Shown: one piece after another, positions 9,114 through 18,810 of the stretch | Numbering within the stretch: position 1 is the first letter of the stretch | Layout: each line of letters starts with the position of its first letter | IMG/VR virus record: IMGVR_UViG_3300035034_000196 | Span: 1-24,954 of that record | Length of the DNA stretch: 24,954 nt | DNA from: a virus | Strand: one strand, 5' to 3' | Made by a program: the position numbers and the translations under genes | Notes under the pieces: model-generated | The model's database searches: none | Told to the model about the DNA's origin: nothing | Seen by the model: only the letters and a program-made list of their open reading frames with translations

Positions 9114-9280
9114 TTGAATGCTCCATCAGTTGTGGTGTGTGGTTTGTAGCAGTCGGGACAGATAGGCTGACCCGCATAGGTTGAGTGCGCCAGCTTCATG
9201 CGGTGGTTGTGCTCCGCAATCAGCTGACGTTCGATCCGGTACGTAGGTACCAATGGTCTACGCGAAGAAGAAGTCGGCAT
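9101..9280 (-). CDS. Small Cys-containing protein overlapping the RNA polymerase end
   Basis: A 59-aa protein. ATG 9280 lies inside the last codons of RNA polymerase and is preceded by a near-perfect AGGAGG six bases upstream, which decides the start. The C-terminus has CPDCYKPHTTTDGAFKC, a partial zinc-ribbon pattern (C-x2-C plus a later Cys). It may be a small zinc-binding adaptor, and its translation is probably linked to that of the polymerase. Confidence 0.6.
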   Translation of the reverse strand: MPTSSSRRPLVPTYRIERQLIAEHNHRMKLAHSTYAGQPICPDCYKPHTTTDGAFKCKT

Positions 9281-11702
9281 CACGCACCTCCTCAAGGTTC
9301 AGCTCGCCTGCTTCAGGTGGCAACGGAACGTCCACCCACTTCTCACCCGGCAGTGCAGGTAGGCATTGCTGATACACGCTAACCAATTGCTCGGGAGTGT
9401 ACAGCTTGATGAACTCATCACGGATGATGAAGTGCATCTCGTCTACGTCACAGGCATGGACTCCGAACGAGTCATGGATCATGGCATAGTGGTTGGTCAC
9501 CCCTTGCTCAGCGAGTGTGTTCACCACCATCATCAGGTGAGTAGCATCCATCGAGTGAATGAAGTTGGGTGCAACCGATAGCTTGTGCTTGGCTGCGTCC
9601 ACATTCTTACTCACCACCTGCAACGTCAGTCGTACCCGCTGCCCTTGGAACAAGACCTTGAACACCTTGCCCTTCGACTTACGGTACGGCTGAACAACAG
9701 GCAGCCCGAGTGGTGTGACCCACGATGTCGGGATGTTCTCTTGCGAGTATGCCTTGCTGATTTCTTTCAGCCAATCCATCGCTTCAGCTGCGCGGTCAAC
9801 GACCTGCCTTATCGCTTGCTCAACGATAGGTGCAACGAAAGCTGCTGCCTTCCAGTTCTCATGGCCCGGAAGGAACTGCCCTTCGGTGCGCTTCCGCATT
9901 TCCTTTGCGATCTGGTCACGTATCCCAATGGATGTTACACTGTACGCAAACGTCATGCATGGTCGCTTGACCATAGTCCTGTCGAGTGCAGACCACCAGA
10001 CCTTCGCCATTGGCTCTCCATTTTCTACCAGTAAATCTTTTGCTACGTTCAGCACCTCGGTGTAGATGTCCGATGGTGCGTCGGTCGCCGTAAGATTCAC
10101 AGCACGTCCACCTTCCGCATCCCTCAGCATTGCGCTGAAGTGTTGGATGCCTGAGCATGAGCCGTCCATCGCAATCGGTAGGTGTGACACGTAGTCCTCA
10201 CCCTCGACCTGATAGCCAGTCCACTCAAAGCAGGCAGCAAGTGCACAGAACGGGTCGTCAGCCTCAGTCCAGAAGCGTTGACCGTCGAGCGGTAGCATCG
10301 CGCTGTCCATCAGCTGCTTGCTGTGTGCTATGGTCCATGCGACACGCTCGTCGAATGATACCTTATCAACACCGAACAGGTTGGCGATCTGAACAGCCAG
10401 CCAGTATGCTCCACTGTTGCCCAGCTTCTTGCCGTCAGCGAATTGGATCAGTGCCTTCGACACGTCGTCACCCTGAGGGTGCATGTCCGCAGACATGGAG
10501 TACACACGACCTCTGAAGTCCAGCGAGTGCGGGAAGTAGAACTCCTCGTTATCTCGCAGGTCTTGAGCGATGGCCAGCTTGGTCATCAACGAGATGCGCT
10601 TCGACCTGAGCTTTGCGTTCGCCTCATGCACATCACGTGCTCGCATTTTCCACTCGGTGAACACGTCATACATTTCCGGTGGCATTTTGGTGGCGTGTAG
10701 CTTGCGATCAATCGACGCTGGTATCTCTGGGATAGCCTCGTCGTTCATCGCTGGTAGTCCACCCATCACGCTGTCCGCAGCTCTGATCTCACGGATGACA
10801 TCAAGTACCGGGACGTTGACAGCCCACGGTGTAGCTTGGATGCGATTGACTGCATCGTAGATACCCGGCATGTCCGAGCTGAACAGGTCGTCTCGTGTGT
10901 CCGGTGATGCTGAACGTACGAGGTTAGCCTTCAGTCGTGCTGTCAGGTAACCGCCCGATGTCGGTGAGGTCCACGGCACAGGCGGCATGAGCATCGGTAA
11001 GTTGACTGGTCGGTCAGCTTCGAGCTGCATGTGGTTGCTTGCGAGTCGCTCGATGGCTGCCTCACTCATGGATATGAGCTTGGTCGTCTTCACACCTTGC
11101 TTCTGCATGGTCAGCTCAGCGAAGCCAGTCGCCTCGATGTACAGCTCGACCAGCTTGGTCCCCATAGTCAGCTTCTCACCCTCCGTCCAGCCCATGCCCT
11201 TGACACCTGCTATCTGTGCTGCCTTCCGCATGATGCGACGACGAGCGCCGGAGCTACTCCACTTCGCAGCCTTGCGGCTCATGCTGTTTGCCAGTGCAGG
11301 CTCGGCTTGTTCCAACTCCTCGAACTGGTAGTCCTCCTGAATGAGGTTCGCTACTCGCATCGCTGTGCGGGTGAGCTTGTCTCGTGAATGGGATGCGGTG
11401 ACACACACTCGGGCTGTGATGTACGCGATGGCATCGGCTCTCAGTTCCCGCATGTAGTGGAAGGCGAGCGGCACCTGCGTTGGTAGGTTACCATTGCCCC
11501 CATCTTCAAGGGCTGTCACTCTCTCCTCTATCACAGGGATCAGTGCACCCATAGCTACGAGTACCATTCCCTTTCCAGCAGTCACGTCACCTGCTCCCTG
11601 TCCCTCAGCTTCCCTGTAGTAGCGGGATACCCCGTCACTGAGCTGCTGTATCTCACGCATCTCTTGAAGTTCTCTTACAGTTGACTCATATTCCCTTTCC
11701 AT
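9258..11702 (-). CDS. T7-like single-subunit DNA-directed RNA polymerase
   Basis: An 814-aa protein matching T7 gp1. Catalytic elements: DGSCSGIQHFSAMLRD (T7 Asp537), MVKRPCMTFAYSVTSIG (Lys631 and Tyr639) and IHDSFGVHA near residue 744 (Asp812). The protein ends in DADFFFA, like the DFAFA end of T7. The segment after VVQPYRKSKGK corresponds to the T7 specificity loop that reads the promoter, and its sequence differs, consistent with a different promoter. ATG 11702 has AAAGG ten bases upstream; a GTG at 11747 lacks a ribosome site. A putative promoter for this enzyme lies about 60 bases upstream, suggesting self-amplification. Confidence 0.98.
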   Translation of the reverse strand: MEREYESTVRELQEMREIQQLSDGVSRYYREAEGQGAGDVTAGKGMVLVAMGALIPVIEERVTALEDGGNGNLPTQVPLAFHYMRELRADAIAYITARVCVTASHSRDKLTRTAMRVANLIQEDYQFEELEQAEPALANSMSRKAAKWSSSGARRRIMRKAAQIAGVKGMGWTEGEKLTMGTKLVELYIEATGFAELTMQKQGVKTTKLISMSEAAIERLASNHMQLEADRPVNLPMLMPPVPWTSPTSGGYLTARLKANLVRSASPDTRDDLFSSDMPGIYDAVNRIQATPWAVNVPVLDVIREIRAADSVMGGLPAMNDEAIPEIPASIDRKLHATKMPPEMYDVFTEWKMRARDVHEANAKLRSKRISLMTKLAIAQDLRDNEEFYFPHSLDFRGRVYSMSADMHPQGDDVSKALIQFADGKKLGNSGAYWLAVQIANLFGVDKVSFDERVAWTIAHSKQLMDSAMLPLDGQRFWTEADDPFCALAACFEWTGYQVEGEDYVSHLPIAMDGSCSGIQHFSAMLRDAEGGRAVNLTATDAPSDIYTEVLNVAKDLLVENGEPMAKVWWSALDRTMVKRPCMTFAYSVTSIGIRDQIAKEMRKRTEGQFLPGHENWKAAAFVAPIVEQAIRQVVDRAAEAMDWLKEISKAYSQENIPTSWVTPLGLPVVQPYRKSKGKVFKVLFQGQRVRLTLQVVSKNVDAAKHKLSVAPNFIHSMDATHLMMVVNTLAEQGVTNHYAMIHDSFGVHACDVDEMHFIIRDEFIKLYTPEQLVSVYQQCLPALPGEKWVDVPLPPEAGELNLEEVRDADFFFA

Positions 11703-11764
11703 ATCTTCAGTACCTTTAAGTTGACTGACAGTTACTTTAAGTATCACTATAAAGTGGTCTTGCT

Positions 11765-14108: not shown

Positions 14109-14708
14109 TCACCCCAGCAGATATTTCACATGCCGACGACTTACGTCATCAGCGCCTTCAAAGGTGCTCACCCTATCGTTAAGGTGCTCGCACCACTCGT
14201 TCCACAACTTCTCTGTGCCACCACATGCGTCGCACAGGTGCAAGTACAATTCGCACTTGTCGTCGATCTCTCGCACCTGAGCTGCCGGGTTTTTACGTGG
14301 CCGGATGAACCATGCTTTCTCGTCGAGGTCAAATCTTTCGACGTTGTGCATGTCCAGACAGCCCGCCTCACCTACCAGAAGTTGACACATAAAGCCAGCT
14401 TTCGGTAGACCGAGGCCGGGAACCTTTAAGAATTCCCTAAGTAAATCACCGAGTTGCAACCGTCCGGCACGATAAGCTCGCACCTTGGAGTACAACTTCA
14501 CACGGTTATCGCGCAGGTAAATGTACCCTGCTCGTTTGAATCCCCATAGCTGCGGAGCATCAGTGCCCAACTTGCGCACGCTCTCCATCTGGTTCCCAAC
14601 ACCGACCCATTGCATCCGGATTGAAAGTAGCACCATCGTGCCAACTGTAAGGAACTTGTCGGGGTTCTTGCACCAGCGTTCGATGCGACTCTGGTCGTCT
14701 TTGTACAT
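14109..14708 (-). CDS. Possible HhH-GPD DNA glycosylase-like protein
   Basis: A 199-aa protein, the largest in the early block. Residues 95-111 (KVPGLGLPKAGFMCQLL) form a helix-hairpin-helix of the form L/V-P-G-x-G-x-x-K-A. Sixteen residues after K103 comes CLDMHNVERF, with D119 where endonuclease III-type glycosylases have their catalytic Asp in VDTH. The upstream region (GTMVLLSIRMQWVGVGNQMESV) could form the other helices. A DNA glycosylase or lyase acting on modified bases is therefore possible, although the iron-sulfur cysteines of endonuclease III are absent. ATG 14708 follows GAGGAGGAG. The call rests on motifs seen by eye. Confidence 0.55.
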   Translation of the reverse strand: MYKDDQSRIERWCKNPDKFLTVGTMVLLSIRMQWVGVGNQMESVRKLGTDAPQLWGFKRAGYIYLRDNRVKLYSKVRAYRAGRLQLGDLLREFLKVPGLGLPKAGFMCQLLVGEAGCLDMHNVERFDLDEKAWFIRPRKNPAAQVREIDDKCELYLHLCDACGGTEKLWNEWCEHLNDRVSTFEGADDVSRRHVKYLLG

Positions 14709-14757
14709 GGTGTTAACTCCTCCTCGCGCAGCCAGTGCGCATGAATCTTATCAAAAA

Positions 14758-14958
14758 TCACTTGCTTCGGGTGAGTCTCAACGTCGCATCACGGTGCATC
14801 GAGAGCATATCCCGAAGCCACGCTTGCCTACTGCTGCGACACTCTCGGGTCTTCCCATACGGGGTGACCATTGAGCGAGCAACCCGGACCATCTCACGTG
14901 GACTGGCAGTGCAACCACCAGCTCGTGACTCGATCCGACAATACTGTGCATACATCAT
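14758..14958 (-). CDS. Small Arg-rich protein downstream of ribozyme-like RNA D
   Basis: A 66-aa protein, MMYAQYCRIESRAGGCTASPREM..., rich in Arg and predicted helical. ATG 14958 is chosen because the GAGGAG six bases upstream is the end of hammerhead-like element D. A longer frame to 15048 would run through the ribozyme and the previous stop region and has no ribosome site. The family is unknown. Confidence 0.6.
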   Translation of the reverse strand: MMYAQYCRIESRAGGCTASPREMVRVARSMVTPYGKTRECRSSRQAWLRDMLSMHRDATLRLTRSK

Positions 14959-14966
14959 AACAATCT

Positions 14967-15044
14967 CCTCATCAGGCCCGACTGTAAGTCGTCGGACGAC
15001 GATCAACGCAACCCCCATGCGAGAGGTCACGCCGACCGTTTCGG
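14967..15044 (-). ncRNA. Hammerhead ribozyme-like RNA D (type II)
   Basis: In minus-strand order: CC (15043-44) then GAAA (15039-42). Stem III has 14 pairs, 15025-15038 against 15000-15013, with several G-T pairs. The GUC triplet is completed by TC at 14998-99, with predicted cleavage between 14998 and 14997. Stem I is GTCCGAC / GTCGGGC with loop GACTTACA. CTGATGA (14969-75) then GG. The TGA of the 69-aa gene directly precedes it and the next Shine-Dalgarno GAGGAG lies at its 3' end. Stem II has only two strong pairs, so activity needs testing. Confidence 0.75.
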
Positions 15045-15254
15045 TCACTTCGCGTGGAACATGGTGCGCCTGATCTGGTTCTGATCCGGCTTGCTCCGCG
15101 CTTCTACGAGCTTCTGCGCCAAAGACTTCGGCTGCTCGGGGATGACGTTGGTCACCTCAGGCATCAGTCTTCCCGAAGGAATCCAGCCCTTATCAGGGCC
15201 ACGAAAGATGCTCACGTTACCGCTATGCGGCTCGATGTTGGTTGTTTTCCTCAT
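15045..15254 (-). CDS. Small protein with EQPKSLAQKLVEAR motif (paralogue 2)
   Basis: A 69-aa protein: a polar N-terminus, then GWIPSGRLMPEVTNVIP and EQPKSLAQKLVEARSK. The second half matches the 58-aa protein at 13785-13961 almost residue for residue. ATG 15254 has GGAG eight bases upstream and overlaps the previous stop as ATGA. Its own TGA touches the stem II strand of ribozyme-like element D, so translation could reach the ribozyme. The function is unknown. Confidence 0.65.
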   Translation of the reverse strand: MRKTTNIEPHSGNVSIFRGPDKGWIPSGRLMPEVTNVIPEQPKSLAQKLVEARSKPDQNQIRRTMFHAK

Positions 15255-15508
15255 ACGATTGTCTCCAGTTGCTCGTTCACGTTATCGAGCGTTGCTTCGA
15301 CCCATGCTGAAAGCTCAGCAATCGGGTAGTTTCTTTTCAGGCCCATAAGCTTTCGCAGGTAGGTTGATACCTTCTGGCCACGAGACATTGTTATGCCTTT
15401 GGCTTCCAGTCGCAGCGCGTGTTTCCACTGGAGCAACTGGAAGTGATTGGTCATAAACGTGTCGCCAGCGTCATTGAAGGCGATCTCTACAGTTGTCACT
15501 ATACTCAT
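15251..15508 (-). CDS. Hypothetical early protein
   Basis: An 85-aa protein: MSIVTTVEIAFNDAG..., then QWKHALRLEAKGITMSRGQKVSTYLRKLMGL and a helical, acidic end. The central part resembles small phage proteins with an ALxLExKG-S-x-G pattern that I have seen but cannot name. ATG 15508 overlaps the stop of the 34-aa gene as ATGA; an in-frame GTG two codons earlier is less likely. Confidence 0.65.
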   Translation of the reverse strand: MSIVTTVEIAFNDAGDTFMTNHFQLLQWKHALRLEAKGITMSRGQKVSTYLRKLMGLKRNYPIAELSAWVEATLDNVNEQLETIV

Positions 15509-15609
15509 CCCCACACCAGCCCAGCGAAGATGATCGCAAAGAATACCGCGATCTCAAAGTCGTCACCATGGATCATGTACCACGTACTTTTCCAGTATTG
15601 CCATTTCAT
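15505..15609 (-). CDS. 34-aa single-TM protein after ribozyme-like RNA C
   Basis: MKWQYWKSTWYMIHGDDFEIAVFFAIIFAGLVWG: an aromatic N-terminus and one membrane helix at the C-terminus. Two ATGs exist (15615, 15609); the second is preferred because GAGGAG at the end of element C is seven bases from it and only one base from the first. It overlaps the next gene as ATGA. Confidence 0.55.
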   Translation of the reverse strand: MKWQYWKSTWYMIHGDDFEIAVFFAIIFAGLVWG

Positions 15610-15618
15610 TTTCATTCT

Positions 15619-15672
15619 CCTCATCAGGCCCAGCAGTATCGTCGCTGGACGACCACCCGAAGGTGGTTTCGG
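15619..15672 (-). ncRNA. Hammerhead ribozyme-like RNA C (type II)
   Basis: The most compact copy. CC (15671-72), GAAA (15667-70), stem III CCACC-TTCG-GGTGG (15653-15666), the GUC triplet with predicted cleavage between 15651 and 15650, stem I GTCCAGC / GCTGGGC with the nine-base loop GACGATACT (15628-15650), then CTGATGA (15621-27) and GG. It fills the spacer between the 168-aa gene stop and the 34-aa gene. Its 3' end is that gene's Shine-Dalgarno. Confidence 0.8.
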
Positions 15673-15680
15673 TCACGTTC

Positions 15681-16187
15681 TCATACTCCCATATCGACGT
15701 ATTGCTTACCGTCGATCATTGCGTACTCGTAGCCCGCAGGAGGTGGATTCGTGTCGAAGAACTTCTCGTCAACGAACGGTCCACCGCAGCAATCACATGG
15801 ACACTCCCGAGAGACAGCCGAAGCGATGAATCCCAGAATCTCCTCATGCGTATAGTCAAGCAGTTGCCCGAGGGTATACTGCAATCGCGGTCGGCTGATT
15901 TCGCCTTCCTTCGCACTAAACACCAAGTCCAGAGCAGCCCTCGCGATGTCATCGTAGGTGCCCGGTCGGCGTGACGAGATAAACGCATGTTCGTACATCT
16001 TCCCGTCTTCACATCGGAGCATTCCAATTTCGATCTGAAGGTTCGACCGTTCAGCCAACATGACGCATGTCTCATACGCCAGCGTTGATTTTCCGCTCGA
16101 TACAATCAGCAGTCGGACTTCGAGGTCGTACACGTCACCGTATCGGCGCATGCAATCGTCGAAGTACTTTCGTTCTTCCTTGTTCAT
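15681..16187 (-). CDS. Hypothetical early protein with Cys cluster
   Basis: A 168-aa protein starting MNKEERKYFDDCMRRYGDVYDLE. It is mostly alpha/beta and has a CPCDCCGG cluster near residue 132 that could bind a metal, then a Pro/Gly/Tyr-rich end (NPPPAGYEYAMIDGKQYVDM). ATG 16187 has AAGGAG six bases upstream; a GTG six codons earlier is less likely. The stop lies just before ribozyme-like element C. The family is unknown. Confidence 0.65.
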   Translation of the reverse strand: MNKEERKYFDDCMRRYGDVYDLEVRLLIVSSGKSTLAYETCVMLAERSNLQIEIGMLRCEDGKMYEHAFISSRRPGTYDDIARAALDLVFSAKEGEISRPRLQYTLGQLLDYTHEEILGFIASAVSRECPCDCCGGPFVDEKFFDTNPPPAGYEYAMIDGKQYVDMGV

Positions 16188-16201
16188 AGTTTGCTCCTTT
16201 T

Positions 16202-16348
16202 TCACTTTTCGGATTCCATCACGATGTCTTCGATCACGAGGTCTCCATCAGCGGCCACATAGTGTTTCACCGTGACTCGCATCTCATATTCATGCCGAAC
16301 GCCAACAAACACGCAACGGCACTTCGCAATAATCTTATCTATGTCCAT
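16202..16348 (-). CDS. Small hypothetical protein after ribozyme-like RNA A
   Basis: A 48-aa protein, MDIDKIIAKCRCVFVGVRHEYEM..., with alternating hydrophobic residues suggesting beta strands (MRVTVKHYV, LVIEDIVM). ATG 16348 has GAGG, part of ribozyme-like element A, eight bases upstream. The next gene starts 15 bases after its stop. No family is recognised. Confidence 0.6.
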   Translation of the reverse strand: MDIDKIIAKCRCVFVGVRHEYEMRVTVKHYVAADGDLVIEDIVMESEK

Positions 16349-16356
16349 CAGTTTAT

Positions 16357-16420
16357 CCTCATCAGCGCAGGCAGTATCGTCGCCTACGGACAGCCCCGGC
16401 TTGCGCCGGGACCGTTTCGG
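16357..16420 (-). ncRNA. Hammerhead ribozyme-like RNA A (type II)
   Basis: CC (16419-20), GAAA (16415-18), stem III of ten pairs closed by a GCAA tetraloop (16391-16414), the GUC triplet with predicted cleavage between 16389 and 16388, stem I CGTAGGC / GCCTGCG with loop GACGATACT (16366-16388), CTGATGA (16359-65), then GG. The loop equals that of copy C although the stem differs, so pairing has been kept by compensating changes. It lies between the 75-aa and 48-aa genes. Confidence 0.82.
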
Positions 16421-16425
16421 TCACG

Positions 16426-16653
16426 TTATGCTGCTACAGCTTCAGCTTCGCTGGTTTCAGCTTCGGTGTCAACCTTTGGCTTAGCGTCAAGTACCGACGC
16501 GAAGTAGGTTTCAATCGCCTGAATTTTGGTCACGATATTCTTCGGAACCGAGACACCAGCGAGACCAGCATTGCCAAGCGCGGTGACCAACTTGCGGTTT
16601 TTAGCGCGGGCGGACTGGAGTGATGCACGTTGTTCTGCGTTTAACTTGCTCAT
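16426..16653 (-). CDS. Hypothetical early protein with Ala/Glu tail
   Basis: A 75-aa protein: a helical basic N-terminus (KLNAEQRASLQSARAKNRKLV), a central NAGLAGVSVPKNIVTKIQAIETYF and an acidic Ala/Glu-rich end (DTEAETSEAEAVAA). ATG 16653 has GAGG of ribozyme-like element B upstream. It stops just before element A. It could be a small dimeric DNA-binding or anti-host factor; no family is recognised. Confidence 0.62.
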   Translation of the reverse strand: MSKLNAEQRASLQSARAKNRKLVTALGNAGLAGVSVPKNIVTKIQAIETYFASVLDAKPKVDTEAETSEAEAVAA

Positions 16654-16661
16654 ATTTGTAT

Positions 16662-16722
16662 CCTCATCAGGTCCAGAAAAGCGTCTGGACGACAGCCCCG
16701 GCTTGCGCCGGGACCGTTTCGG
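16662..16722 (-). ncRNA. Hammerhead ribozyme-like RNA B (type II)
   Basis: CC (16721-22), GAAA (16717-20), the same ten-pair stem III with GCAA loop as copy A (16693-16716), GUC with predicted cleavage between 16691 and 16690, stem I GTCCAGA / TCTGGAC with loop CGCTTT (16671-16690), CTGATGA (16664-70), GG. It lies between the 63-aa and 75-aa genes, and its end supplies the GAGG ribosome site. Confidence 0.82.
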
Positions 16723-16736
16723 TCGCGGTGTTTTAC

Positions 16737-16928
16737 TTACTTAGCTCCGATAGATCGGATGCCCATTTTGTGAGCGGTGCATCGCCCTAATATGTAAGTT
16801 ATCGCGGAACGTACCCGCGCACTTTCGCTGGTCTCGCGGTGTTGATGAAGCAGCACGATCAGCTGGTCAGCAGTAAGCTCGTTCGCCTCGTGTTCCCCTA
16901 ATTCCTGTGTCGTTCGATATGTAGTCAT
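16737..16928 (-). CDS. Hypothetical early protein
   Basis: A 63-aa helical protein: TTYRTTQELGEHEANELTAD, then QLIVLLHQHRETSESARVR and a basic end. ATG 16928 overlaps the previous stop as ATGA. Its Shine-Dalgarno GAGGATA is the surviving 3' end of a deleted ribozyme-like element. The stop is followed by a 14-base spacer and element B. The family is unknown. Confidence 0.62.
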   Translation of the reverse strand: MTTYRTTQELGEHEANELTADQLIVLLHQHRETSESARVRSAITYILGRCTAHKMGIRSIGAK

Positions 16929-17062
16929 GCTATGTATCCTCGTTTCGGTCGCGGTGTTTTACTCGGTTTATTCACTGCCGTTAGGTGCTGCTTCGCGGCT
17001 GCCGGGTTCTTCGCCCGGTTCATGCTGGCACGCCTTGCGGCTTTCTGCTCCGCAGGACTCAC
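16925..17062 (-). CDS. Small basic protein whose end is encoded by a ribozyme remnant
   Basis: A 45-aa, Lys/Arg/Ala-rich protein. GTG 17062 overlaps the previous stop (GTGA); an ATG at 17023 with AAGG upstream is the alternative start. Its last codons (TPRPKRGYIA) read through the remnant of a hammerhead-like element at 16933-16963, so the deletion that removed the ribozyme also created this C-terminus. The stop overlaps the next ATG. It probably binds nucleic acid if it is made. Confidence 0.5.
   Translation of the reverse strand: MSPAEQKAARRASMNRAKNPAAAKQHLTAVNKPSKTPRPKRGYIA
16933..16963 (-). other. Remnant of a hammerhead-like element (internal deletion)
   Basis: 23 bases (16941-16963) are identical to 16715-16737 of element B, and nine bases (16933-16941) are identical to 16657-16665. 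In B these two blocks enclose stem III, the cleavage site, stem I and most of CTGATGA. Here they are joined directly, so about 49 bases are missing. The GAGGATA ribosome site is kept. Confidence 0.75.
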
Positions 17063-17199
17063 GATGCGGCTGCCGTGCGGCGGATGTTTTCCCGGCGAAT
17101 CTCGCGGGCCAATTTCAGTGCAGCTTCGCTGCTTTTCTCTGCCGAATCCGTGTTTCCGATCCTTGCCGCTTCGCGGGTTTGGTAGTTGCTTGTACGCAT
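17059..17199 (-). CDS. Small helical early protein after ribozyme-like RNA E
   Basis: A 46-aa protein (MRTSNYQTREAARIGNTDSA... LAREIRRENIRRTAAAS), entirely helical and basic in its C-terminal half. ATG 17199 has GAGG from element E eight bases upstream. The stop overlaps the next GTG. No family is recognised. Confidence 0.6.
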   Translation of the reverse strand: MRTSNYQTREAARIGNTDSAEKSSEAALKLAREIRRENIRRTAAAS

Positions 17200-17205
17200 G
17201 GTAAA

Positions 17206-17278
17206 ATCCTCATCAGCAGCAGGCTAAGTCCTGCCGGACGCGAGGTGCAACCCGAAGGTCACACCCTACGTTTCGGAT
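17206..17278 (-). ncRNA. Hammerhead ribozyme-like RNA E (type II, 4-bp stem II)
   Basis: ATCC (17275-78) pairs with GGAT (17206-09), giving a four-pair stem II, the best of the series. GAAA is at 17271-74. Stem III has 14 positions with a TTCG loop and one A-C mismatch (17239-17270). Cleavage after TC is predicted between 17237 and 17236. Stem I is CGGCAGG / CCTGCTG with loop ACTTAG (17217-17236), then CTGATGA (17210-16). The base before U is G, as in the other copies. It begins two bases after the stop of the 65-aa gene. Confidence 0.82.
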
Positions 17279-17279
17279 A

Positions 17280-17477
17280 CTATGCCAGTACTTCGTACTG
17301 TCCGGCACTTCGGGTTGCACGGTCAAGCCAGTCCAGATTGCCTTCGCCGATGCAGCTTACGGTCGCCTTAGGCGGAGTCGGCGTAGACAATACAATCTCG
17401 TTGCCGTTTGTTTCAATCTGGCAGCCTTCGGCTGATACGGTCTTCACTGCATGGCGTGCTCGGTTTACTTTACGCAT
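17280..17477 (-). CDS. First early protein, hypothetical
   Basis: A 65-aa protein: MRKVNRARHAVKTVSAEGCQI, then a probable beta section (NEIVLSTPTPPKATVSC) and NLDWLDRATRSAGQY. ATG 17477 has GGAG six bases upstream. It is the promoter-proximal gene of the early operon, the position of the anti-restriction gene 0.3 in T7, but it shows no resemblance to Ocr. The function is unknown. Confidence 0.62.
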   Translation of the reverse strand: MRKVNRARHAVKTVSAEGCQIETNGNEIVLSTPTPPKATVSCIGEGNLDWLDRATRSAGQYEVLA

Positions 17478-17493
17478 GTCAATCTCCAGTTAA

Positions 17494-17538
17494 TTTCGGG
17501 GTATCTCATCAGGTACGGGTACCAATCCCGTACGATTA
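17494..17538 (-). ncRNA. Permuted, weak hammerhead-like element F (type III-like)
   Basis: It has AATC with predicted cleavage before a perfect stem I, GTACGGG / CCCGTAC with loop ATTGGTA (17513-17533), CTGATGA (17506-12), then eight bases and GAAA (17494-97). Here GAAA is downstream, so stem III would pair TAAT upstream with ATTA downstream (four pairs), the type III order. Stem II is reduced to about one pair, so it may be degenerate or inactive. It precedes the first early gene. Confidence 0.4.
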
Positions 17539-17539
17539 T

Positions 17540-18732: not shown

Positions 18733-18810
18733 TGGTTGATCTTCAGGGACTCGAACCCCGGACCTCCGAAGTATCAGTTCGGCGCTCTAACCAGTCTGAG
18801 CTAAAGATCA
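18733..18810 (-). tRNA. tRNA-Ile (GAT anticodon)
   Basis: A complete cloverleaf on the minus strand: acceptor stem TGATCTT / AAGATCA (seven pairs), D stem GCTC / GAGC, anticodon stem CCGAA / TTCGG around the loop CTGATAC (anticodon GAT), T stem CGGGG / CCCTG with loop TTCGAGT, then discriminator A and an encoded CCA. It is oriented like the phage genes and lies between TerL and the early region. No integrase is visible, so this looks like a functional phage tRNA rather than an attachment fragment. Confidence 0.93.

Follow-up and report, generated by a model that had tools for sequence, protein, structure and literature searches.

How might a T7-like virus divide its early polycistronic messenger RNA (mRNA) into separate messages? 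In phage T7 the early transcript is cut between genes by host RNase III, which leaves a 5′-phosphate. The question is raised in another form by the IMG/VR virus record IMGVR_UViG_3300035034_000196, analysed here over its 24,954 bases (the window), in which type II hammerhead ribozyme motifs lie between small genes. The minus strand encodes a T7-type RNA polymerase, DNA polymerase, primase/helicase, amidase and the terminase large subunit (TerL); a single-subunit RNA polymerase together with primase/helicase, DNA polymerase and terminase identifies a T7-like phage of the Autographiviridae type. The best-supported reading, to which we give a probability of roughly 0.77, is that cis-acting, self-cleaving hammerheads would process its early mRNA.

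Anatomy and covariation of the type II copies

The first-pass annotation of the window had described five type II hammerheads, and all were found, on the minus strand, which is the gene strand (A–E, Table 1). Each contained the core elements CUGANGA, GAAA, A15.1-U16.1 and H17 in the type II layout, with loops closing stems I and III and stem II open. A motif scanner requiring the core, A15.1-U16.1, closed stems I and III and an open stem II recovered exactly these five copies from both strands of the window and gave zero matches in 400 order-2 Markov shuffles of it. Stems I and III were very stable when folded. Pairing in stem I was kept as first described, at a length of 7–8 rather than 7 base pairs (bp); the 5–14 pairs given for stem III were replaced by the unbroken lengths in Table 1 and, in E, by 4 bp followed by 10 more past a mismatch. 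The suspected weakness of stem II in four copies was borne out, with 2 bp in A–D. This worry is largely answered by a covarying pseudoknot between loop I and the 5′ flank, described below.

A covariance-model search, which had been proposed as a check, agreed in part. Rfam Hammerhead_II (RF02276) matched four of the five copies (C 36.4, B 36.2, D 27.3 and A 27.0 bits), all under the gathering score of 37 bits, which is a curation cut-off and no defining property of type II; E was unmatched. The single-family search gave E-values from 9.5e-8 to 2.6e-5, and a copy of the same kind in a related contig, G003, reached 48.7 bits with this model.

An RNA polymerase query of viral contigs found no close relative, while a TerL query succeeded, retrieving two 44 kb contigs, G001 and G002 (TerL 85% and polymerase 67% identical to the window), and the shorter G003 (TerL 67% identical). 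A hammerhead-pattern search added L015/G005 and L037/G006. We found four type II copies each in G001, G002 and G003 and one each in G005 and G006; the copies of G001 and G002 that passed the stem test were located in the early region.

Covariation was measured on 14 distinct copies from the window and its relatives, aligned without gaps as fixed-length pieces. The proposed structure paired 93.2% of cells versus 69.0% for shuffled ones, a percentage biased towards the structure since the scanner demands stems I and III, which does not bias the variety of pair types. The covariation score was 0.684 versus 0.185 ± 0.029 for shuffled and at most 0.115 for slid versions; kinship among the sequences inflates such counts, and the slid controls retain it. 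Double, compensatory changes were found at 7/7 stem I pairs. In one pair of orthologous copies, otherwise near-identical, stem I is CGTGCAT/ATGCACG in G001 and CGTGCCT/AGGCACG in G002, a compensatory C-G/A-U change. The catalytic core was invariant or near invariant among the 14, an apparent invariance that is inflated because the copies were located via their core.

Loop I pairing and the adjoining translation signals

Published type II hammerheads commonly, not universally, pair loop I with the 3′ tail (PMC3088659). This was also the pattern in 75 other viral type II copies, where pairing with the 3′ tail had a z of 11.9 and the 5′ side gave no signal (z 1.1). In the window and its relatives (the window group), pairing of loop I with the 5′ flank of stem II scored 54 versus 41.1 ± 2.7 for shuffled loops, with 0 of 1000 as high. 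Pairing with the 3′ tail showed no excess in this group (39 versus 40.4 for shuffled loops). When whole loops were swapped between copies in free register, a weaker test, p was 0.06. In a fixed register, 41/42 core cells paired versus 34.9 ± 1.7 with swapped loops (p 0.0002), a value from which kinship is not removed, for a register picked after inspection and with E and the G006 copy, which do not fit it, omitted. Most of the covariation came from the alternation of two flank/loop combinations, ACGU/ACG and AAGU/ACU, and copy B contributed a further U-A to C-G change.

Since loop I pairs the 5′ flank of stem II, opposite to the control copies, the window-group copies are, judged by their sequences, a distinct type II subtype with a mostly 2-bp stem II and loop I on its 5′ shoulder. 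Outside the window and its relatives this 5′ pseudoknot was not seen. When 84,980 prokaryote species genomes were scanned for the pattern, the 11 matches all lacked hammerhead stems, and the scan thus found no integrated relative of the subtype. Seven T7-like RNA polymerase loci in alphaproteobacterial genomes (397 searched, from the order that includes Microvirga) had no hammerhead in the fetched flanks, some of them on short contigs.

The subtype copies abut translation signals on both sides. In 16/16 distinct copies an ATG lay at +6 to +13 past CUGAUGA, mostly at +10 (in C either of two ATGs could be the start), versus 12/117 control copies, about the chance rate; the median first ATG was at 10 in the subtype and 27 in the controls. 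The control set was retrieved with CTGATGAGGA and was thus not depleted of Shine-Dalgarno-like letters. In most subtype copies such letters were confined, near the start, to UGAGG(A/U) in the core and stem II, and the 3′ side of the subtype, left free by the pseudoknot, is predicted to be the Shine-Dalgarno site of the next gene. The upstream stop codon lay close to or inside the element, from 2 nucleotides (nt; D) to 16 nt (B) ahead of GAAA. In D the pseudoknot arm itself holds the stop codon of g9 (AAG UGA CCGAAA).

The early region and its counterparts in other phages

Region 14109–17477, between the terminase side and the RNA polymerase, consists of small genes whose positional counterparts in Caulobacter phage S2B and Mycobacterium phage jiawei are the early genes. 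A PHROG search of five of them gave no match. The overlapping g7-g8-g9 and the tightly spaced g5-g6 have no ribozyme between them. The g6 homologues in G001 and G002 precede a type II hammerhead, as g6 does in the window. The RNA polymerase is distant from those of named Autographiviridae (best identity 37%). A complete tRNA-Ile (GAT) lies at 18733–18810 (-), in the spacer that separates the terminase from the early genes, and could be an attachment site; no integrase was seen in the window. LUZ100 and L015 likewise have a tRNA close to this region.

Table 1. Positions of the ribozyme copies and genes in the window
Feature	Position	Strand	Details
Type II hammerhead E	17206..17279	-	Stem II 4 bp AUCC/GGAU; stem I CGGCAGG/CCTGCTG; predicted cut after GUC
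Type II hammerhead B	16662..16723	-	Stem III 11 bp; stem I GTCCAGA/TCTGGAC; loop CGC pairs flank GCG
Type II hammerhead A	16357..16421	-	Stem III 11 bp; stem I CGTAGGC(G)/(T)GCCTGCG; loop ACG pairs flank CGU
Type II hammerhead C	15619..15673	-	Stem III 6 bp; stem I GTCCAGC/GCTGGGC; loop ACG pairs flank CGU
Type II hammerhead D	14967..15045	-	Stem III 18 bp; stem I GTCCGAC/GTCGGGC; loop ACUU pairs flank AAGU
Candidate type III hammerhead	17491..17539	-	Heads early operon, ahead of g1; overlooked in the first pass
Collapsed ribozyme scar	16933..16963	-	Directly ahead of g3 start; core deleted
Early gene g1	17280..17477	-	65 amino acids; C-terminal homologue in G001/G002
Early gene g2	17059..17199	-	46 amino acids; ATG 10 nt past CUGAUGA of E
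Early gene g3	16737..16928	-	63 amino acids
Early gene g4	16426..16653	-	75 amino acids; homologues in G001, G002, G003, G005
Early gene g5	16202..16348	-	48 amino acids
Early gene g6	15681..16187	-	168 amino acids; homologues 58–65% identical in G001, G002, G005
Small open reading frame g7	15505..15615	-	36 amino acids; start uncertain
Early gene g8	15251..15514	-	Overlaps g7 and g9; homologue in G001/G002
Early gene g9	15045..15254	-	Stop UGA within 5′ part of ribozyme D
Early gene g10	14758..14958	-	66 amino acids
T7-type single-subunit RNA polymerase	9258..11747	-	PHROG 414, E 5e-227; downstream of early region

At the head of the operon, the scanner extended to all three permutations (chance expectation about 0.01 per window) found a candidate type III hammerhead composed of AUAAUC, stem I GUACGGG/CCCGUAC, CUGAUGA, G(AUACCC)C and GAAAUUA. 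Its stem II is 1 bp, with a loop UACC able to pair with GGUA of loop I, and its stem III is 4 bp and A-U rich; Rfam gave no match there. Early genes are also headed by type III hammerheads in G001, G002, G003 and L015. We regard it as the weakest copy, a candidate backed mainly by conserved position.

Traces of exchange were found among the type II copies. The scar ahead of g3 consists of 23 nt of the 5′ half of B joined to 8 nt of its 3′ tail, by identity to B. A and B have an identical 5′ half (stem III) and different stems I, which suggests recombination between copies.

Hammerheads occupy the same early region in several named phages, surveyed with Rfam and the scanner; several copies were found by the scanner only, and the sample is not systematic and gives no prevalence. 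Caulobacter phage S2B has a type III copy (46.6 bits) and two type I candidates, Mycobacterium phage jiawei a type III, Eistla types I, II and I, and pelagiphage HTVC019P types III and I. Rhizobium phage RHEph01 has types III and II plus a type I/III candidate, RHEph21 type III, and TRX32-1 types II and I. Pelagiphage HTVC168P carries types I and II, and HTVC142P type I, each plus a type III at the record end, whose place at the head of the early region would require circularly permuted records. Unlike the window, these phages mix types I, II and III. None of their early-region hammerheads carries a ribozyme annotation in its record. The type III and I candidates of HTVC019P (L168; 971–1028 and 2948–3008) were unreported by the Rfam type III and II models. 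T7, phiKMV, Syn5, P-SSP7, HTVC011P, LUZ100, CRP-113, CRP-114, BB8, Babayka, Lo5R7ANS, Mysterion and MedPE-SWcel-C56 yielded no hammerhead in the searches applied to each of them. Mesorhizobium phage Lo5R7ANS has an annotated RtcB in its T7-like early region (L162:5757-6410); RtcB ligates the type of ends that hammerheads leave. Further viral contigs with at least four type II hammerheads per stretch were L029 (five), L036 (six), L044, L047, L066, L069 and L084.

The first pass had taken an array separating genes to be without precedent, which is not so. Clustered prophage hammerheads were published in 2011: in Agrobacterium tumefaciens, Azorhizobium caulinodans and Clostridium scindens several hammerheads flank single genes or short gene blocks, processing to gene-length mRNA was proposed, and three clusters cleave in vitro, one in E. 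coli (Perreault et al. 2011, PMC3088659). The window differs from these three clusters, for which cleavage is demonstrated, in its five to six copies, T7-like early region and tight stop-to-start fit; a possible, suggestive connection with the hammerhead prophage of A. tumefaciens (ardA, marR, integrase) was noted. With type II RF02276 (PMC3088659) the window copies share the core, element order, closed stems I and III, open stem II and occurrence in phage or prophage DNA, and published hammerheads with a stem II of one or two pairs exist (PMC3088659). They differ in that loop I pairs the 5′ flank rather than the 3′ tail and the 3′ side would serve as the next Shine-Dalgarno site. A literature search confined to non-subscription papers found none linking hammerheads to early regions of Autographiviridae or pelagiphages. 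The array idea has been known since 2011, and the T7-like early setting, the subtype and the fusion with the ribosome site appear to be new.

Self-cleavage and its alternatives

The hammerhead reading draws on the core in every copy, its absence from shuffles, the Rfam matches and the covariation; on the same early location in relatives and early-region copies in distant named phages; and on the 5′ pseudoknot, the near-fixed start distance and the cleaving prophage clusters (PMC3088659). Anatomy, covariation and positional conservation are direct observations of this study. Each type II copy spans from the upstream stop codon to the next ribosome-binding site. According to the model, stems III and I would fold while transcription proceeds, loop I would dock beside the short stem II, on its 5′ shoulder, and self-cleavage after GUC would occur as the transcript is made. 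The upstream message would then end in the stem III hairpin with a 2′,3′-cyclic phosphate, and the downstream message would begin with a 5′-OH and the stem I hairpin, followed directly by the UGAGG(A/U) Shine-Dalgarno and the start codon; the overlapping g7-g8-g9 and the close pair g5-g6 would stay uncut. Like the RNase III sites of T7, these elements would separate successive early genes, with the difference that the RNA cuts itself and leaves a 5′-OH. We infer cleavage, its timing and benefit, and the effects on mRNA stability and translation.

Several points weigh against this reading. The window copies all scored below the RF02276 gathering threshold or, for E, not at all, and the candidate at 17491–17539 folds poorly in isolation. 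A cut ahead of g3 appears dispensable, since only the collapsed scar lies in that spacer. The window genes are presumed early from their position. Many T7-like phages have no detectable hammerheads, which are therefore not required for a T7-like lifestyle.

The elements might chiefly control translation: the intact hammerhead would hide the Shine-Dalgarno site in stem II and the core, either a cut or an arriving ribosome would resolve this fold, and cleavage and initiation would therefore compete. Shine-Dalgarno letters within CUGAUGA-GG, the constant ATG distance and the stop codon in the pseudoknot arm of D speak for this, as does the type III ribozyme of S2B, in which the gp065c start codon lies within stem III and AAGGAGG in loop II. 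However, a 2-bp stem II would occlude weakly without a tertiary fold, and compactness alone could explain the overlap; we consider this doubtful as the main role, and it is compatible with self-processing, not exclusive of it. That the elements are structured insulators or stability hairpins that have lost cleavage in vivo would agree with their very stable stems I and III and with the coreless scar, but is improbable: catalytic residues are (near) invariant while stems vary freely, even if core-based retrieval inflates that invariance, and hairpins alone need neither the core nor H17 nor the pseudoknot.

The half shared by A and B, the scar as a deletion derivative of B and the different order of homologous genes relative to the ribozymes in G001–G003 would fit repeats whose main role is to mark recombination boundaries at which early gene cassettes are shuffled. 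Yet the stems diverge widely and stay paired, which homologous recombination does not need; we hold such a main role to be very unlikely and recombination more likely to be a side effect. Chance matches, or intrinsic terminators taken for hammerheads, have a negligible likelihood. Terminator-like hairpins are present in the region, but all are on the opposite strand, with no intrinsic terminator on the gene strand, the shuffles gave no match, and the covariation refutes this explanation.

Returning to self-processing hammerheads, we tentatively propose a further step, in which this lineage has swapped RNase III for self-cutting RNAs whose core is also the ribosome site, joining folding, cleavage and initiation in one switch. 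The intact RNA would be shut to ribosomes, and the cut would free a directly translatable gene-length message. Arrays of this kind may be undercounted, because Rfam models miss the subtype or score it below the cut-off. The subtype shows an alternative docking for loop I and would combine stop codon, self-cutting RNA and ribosome site in one compact natural module. The early-region hammerheads of cultured phages (S2B, the pelagiphages and RHEph01) make the role of phage hammerheads directly testable.

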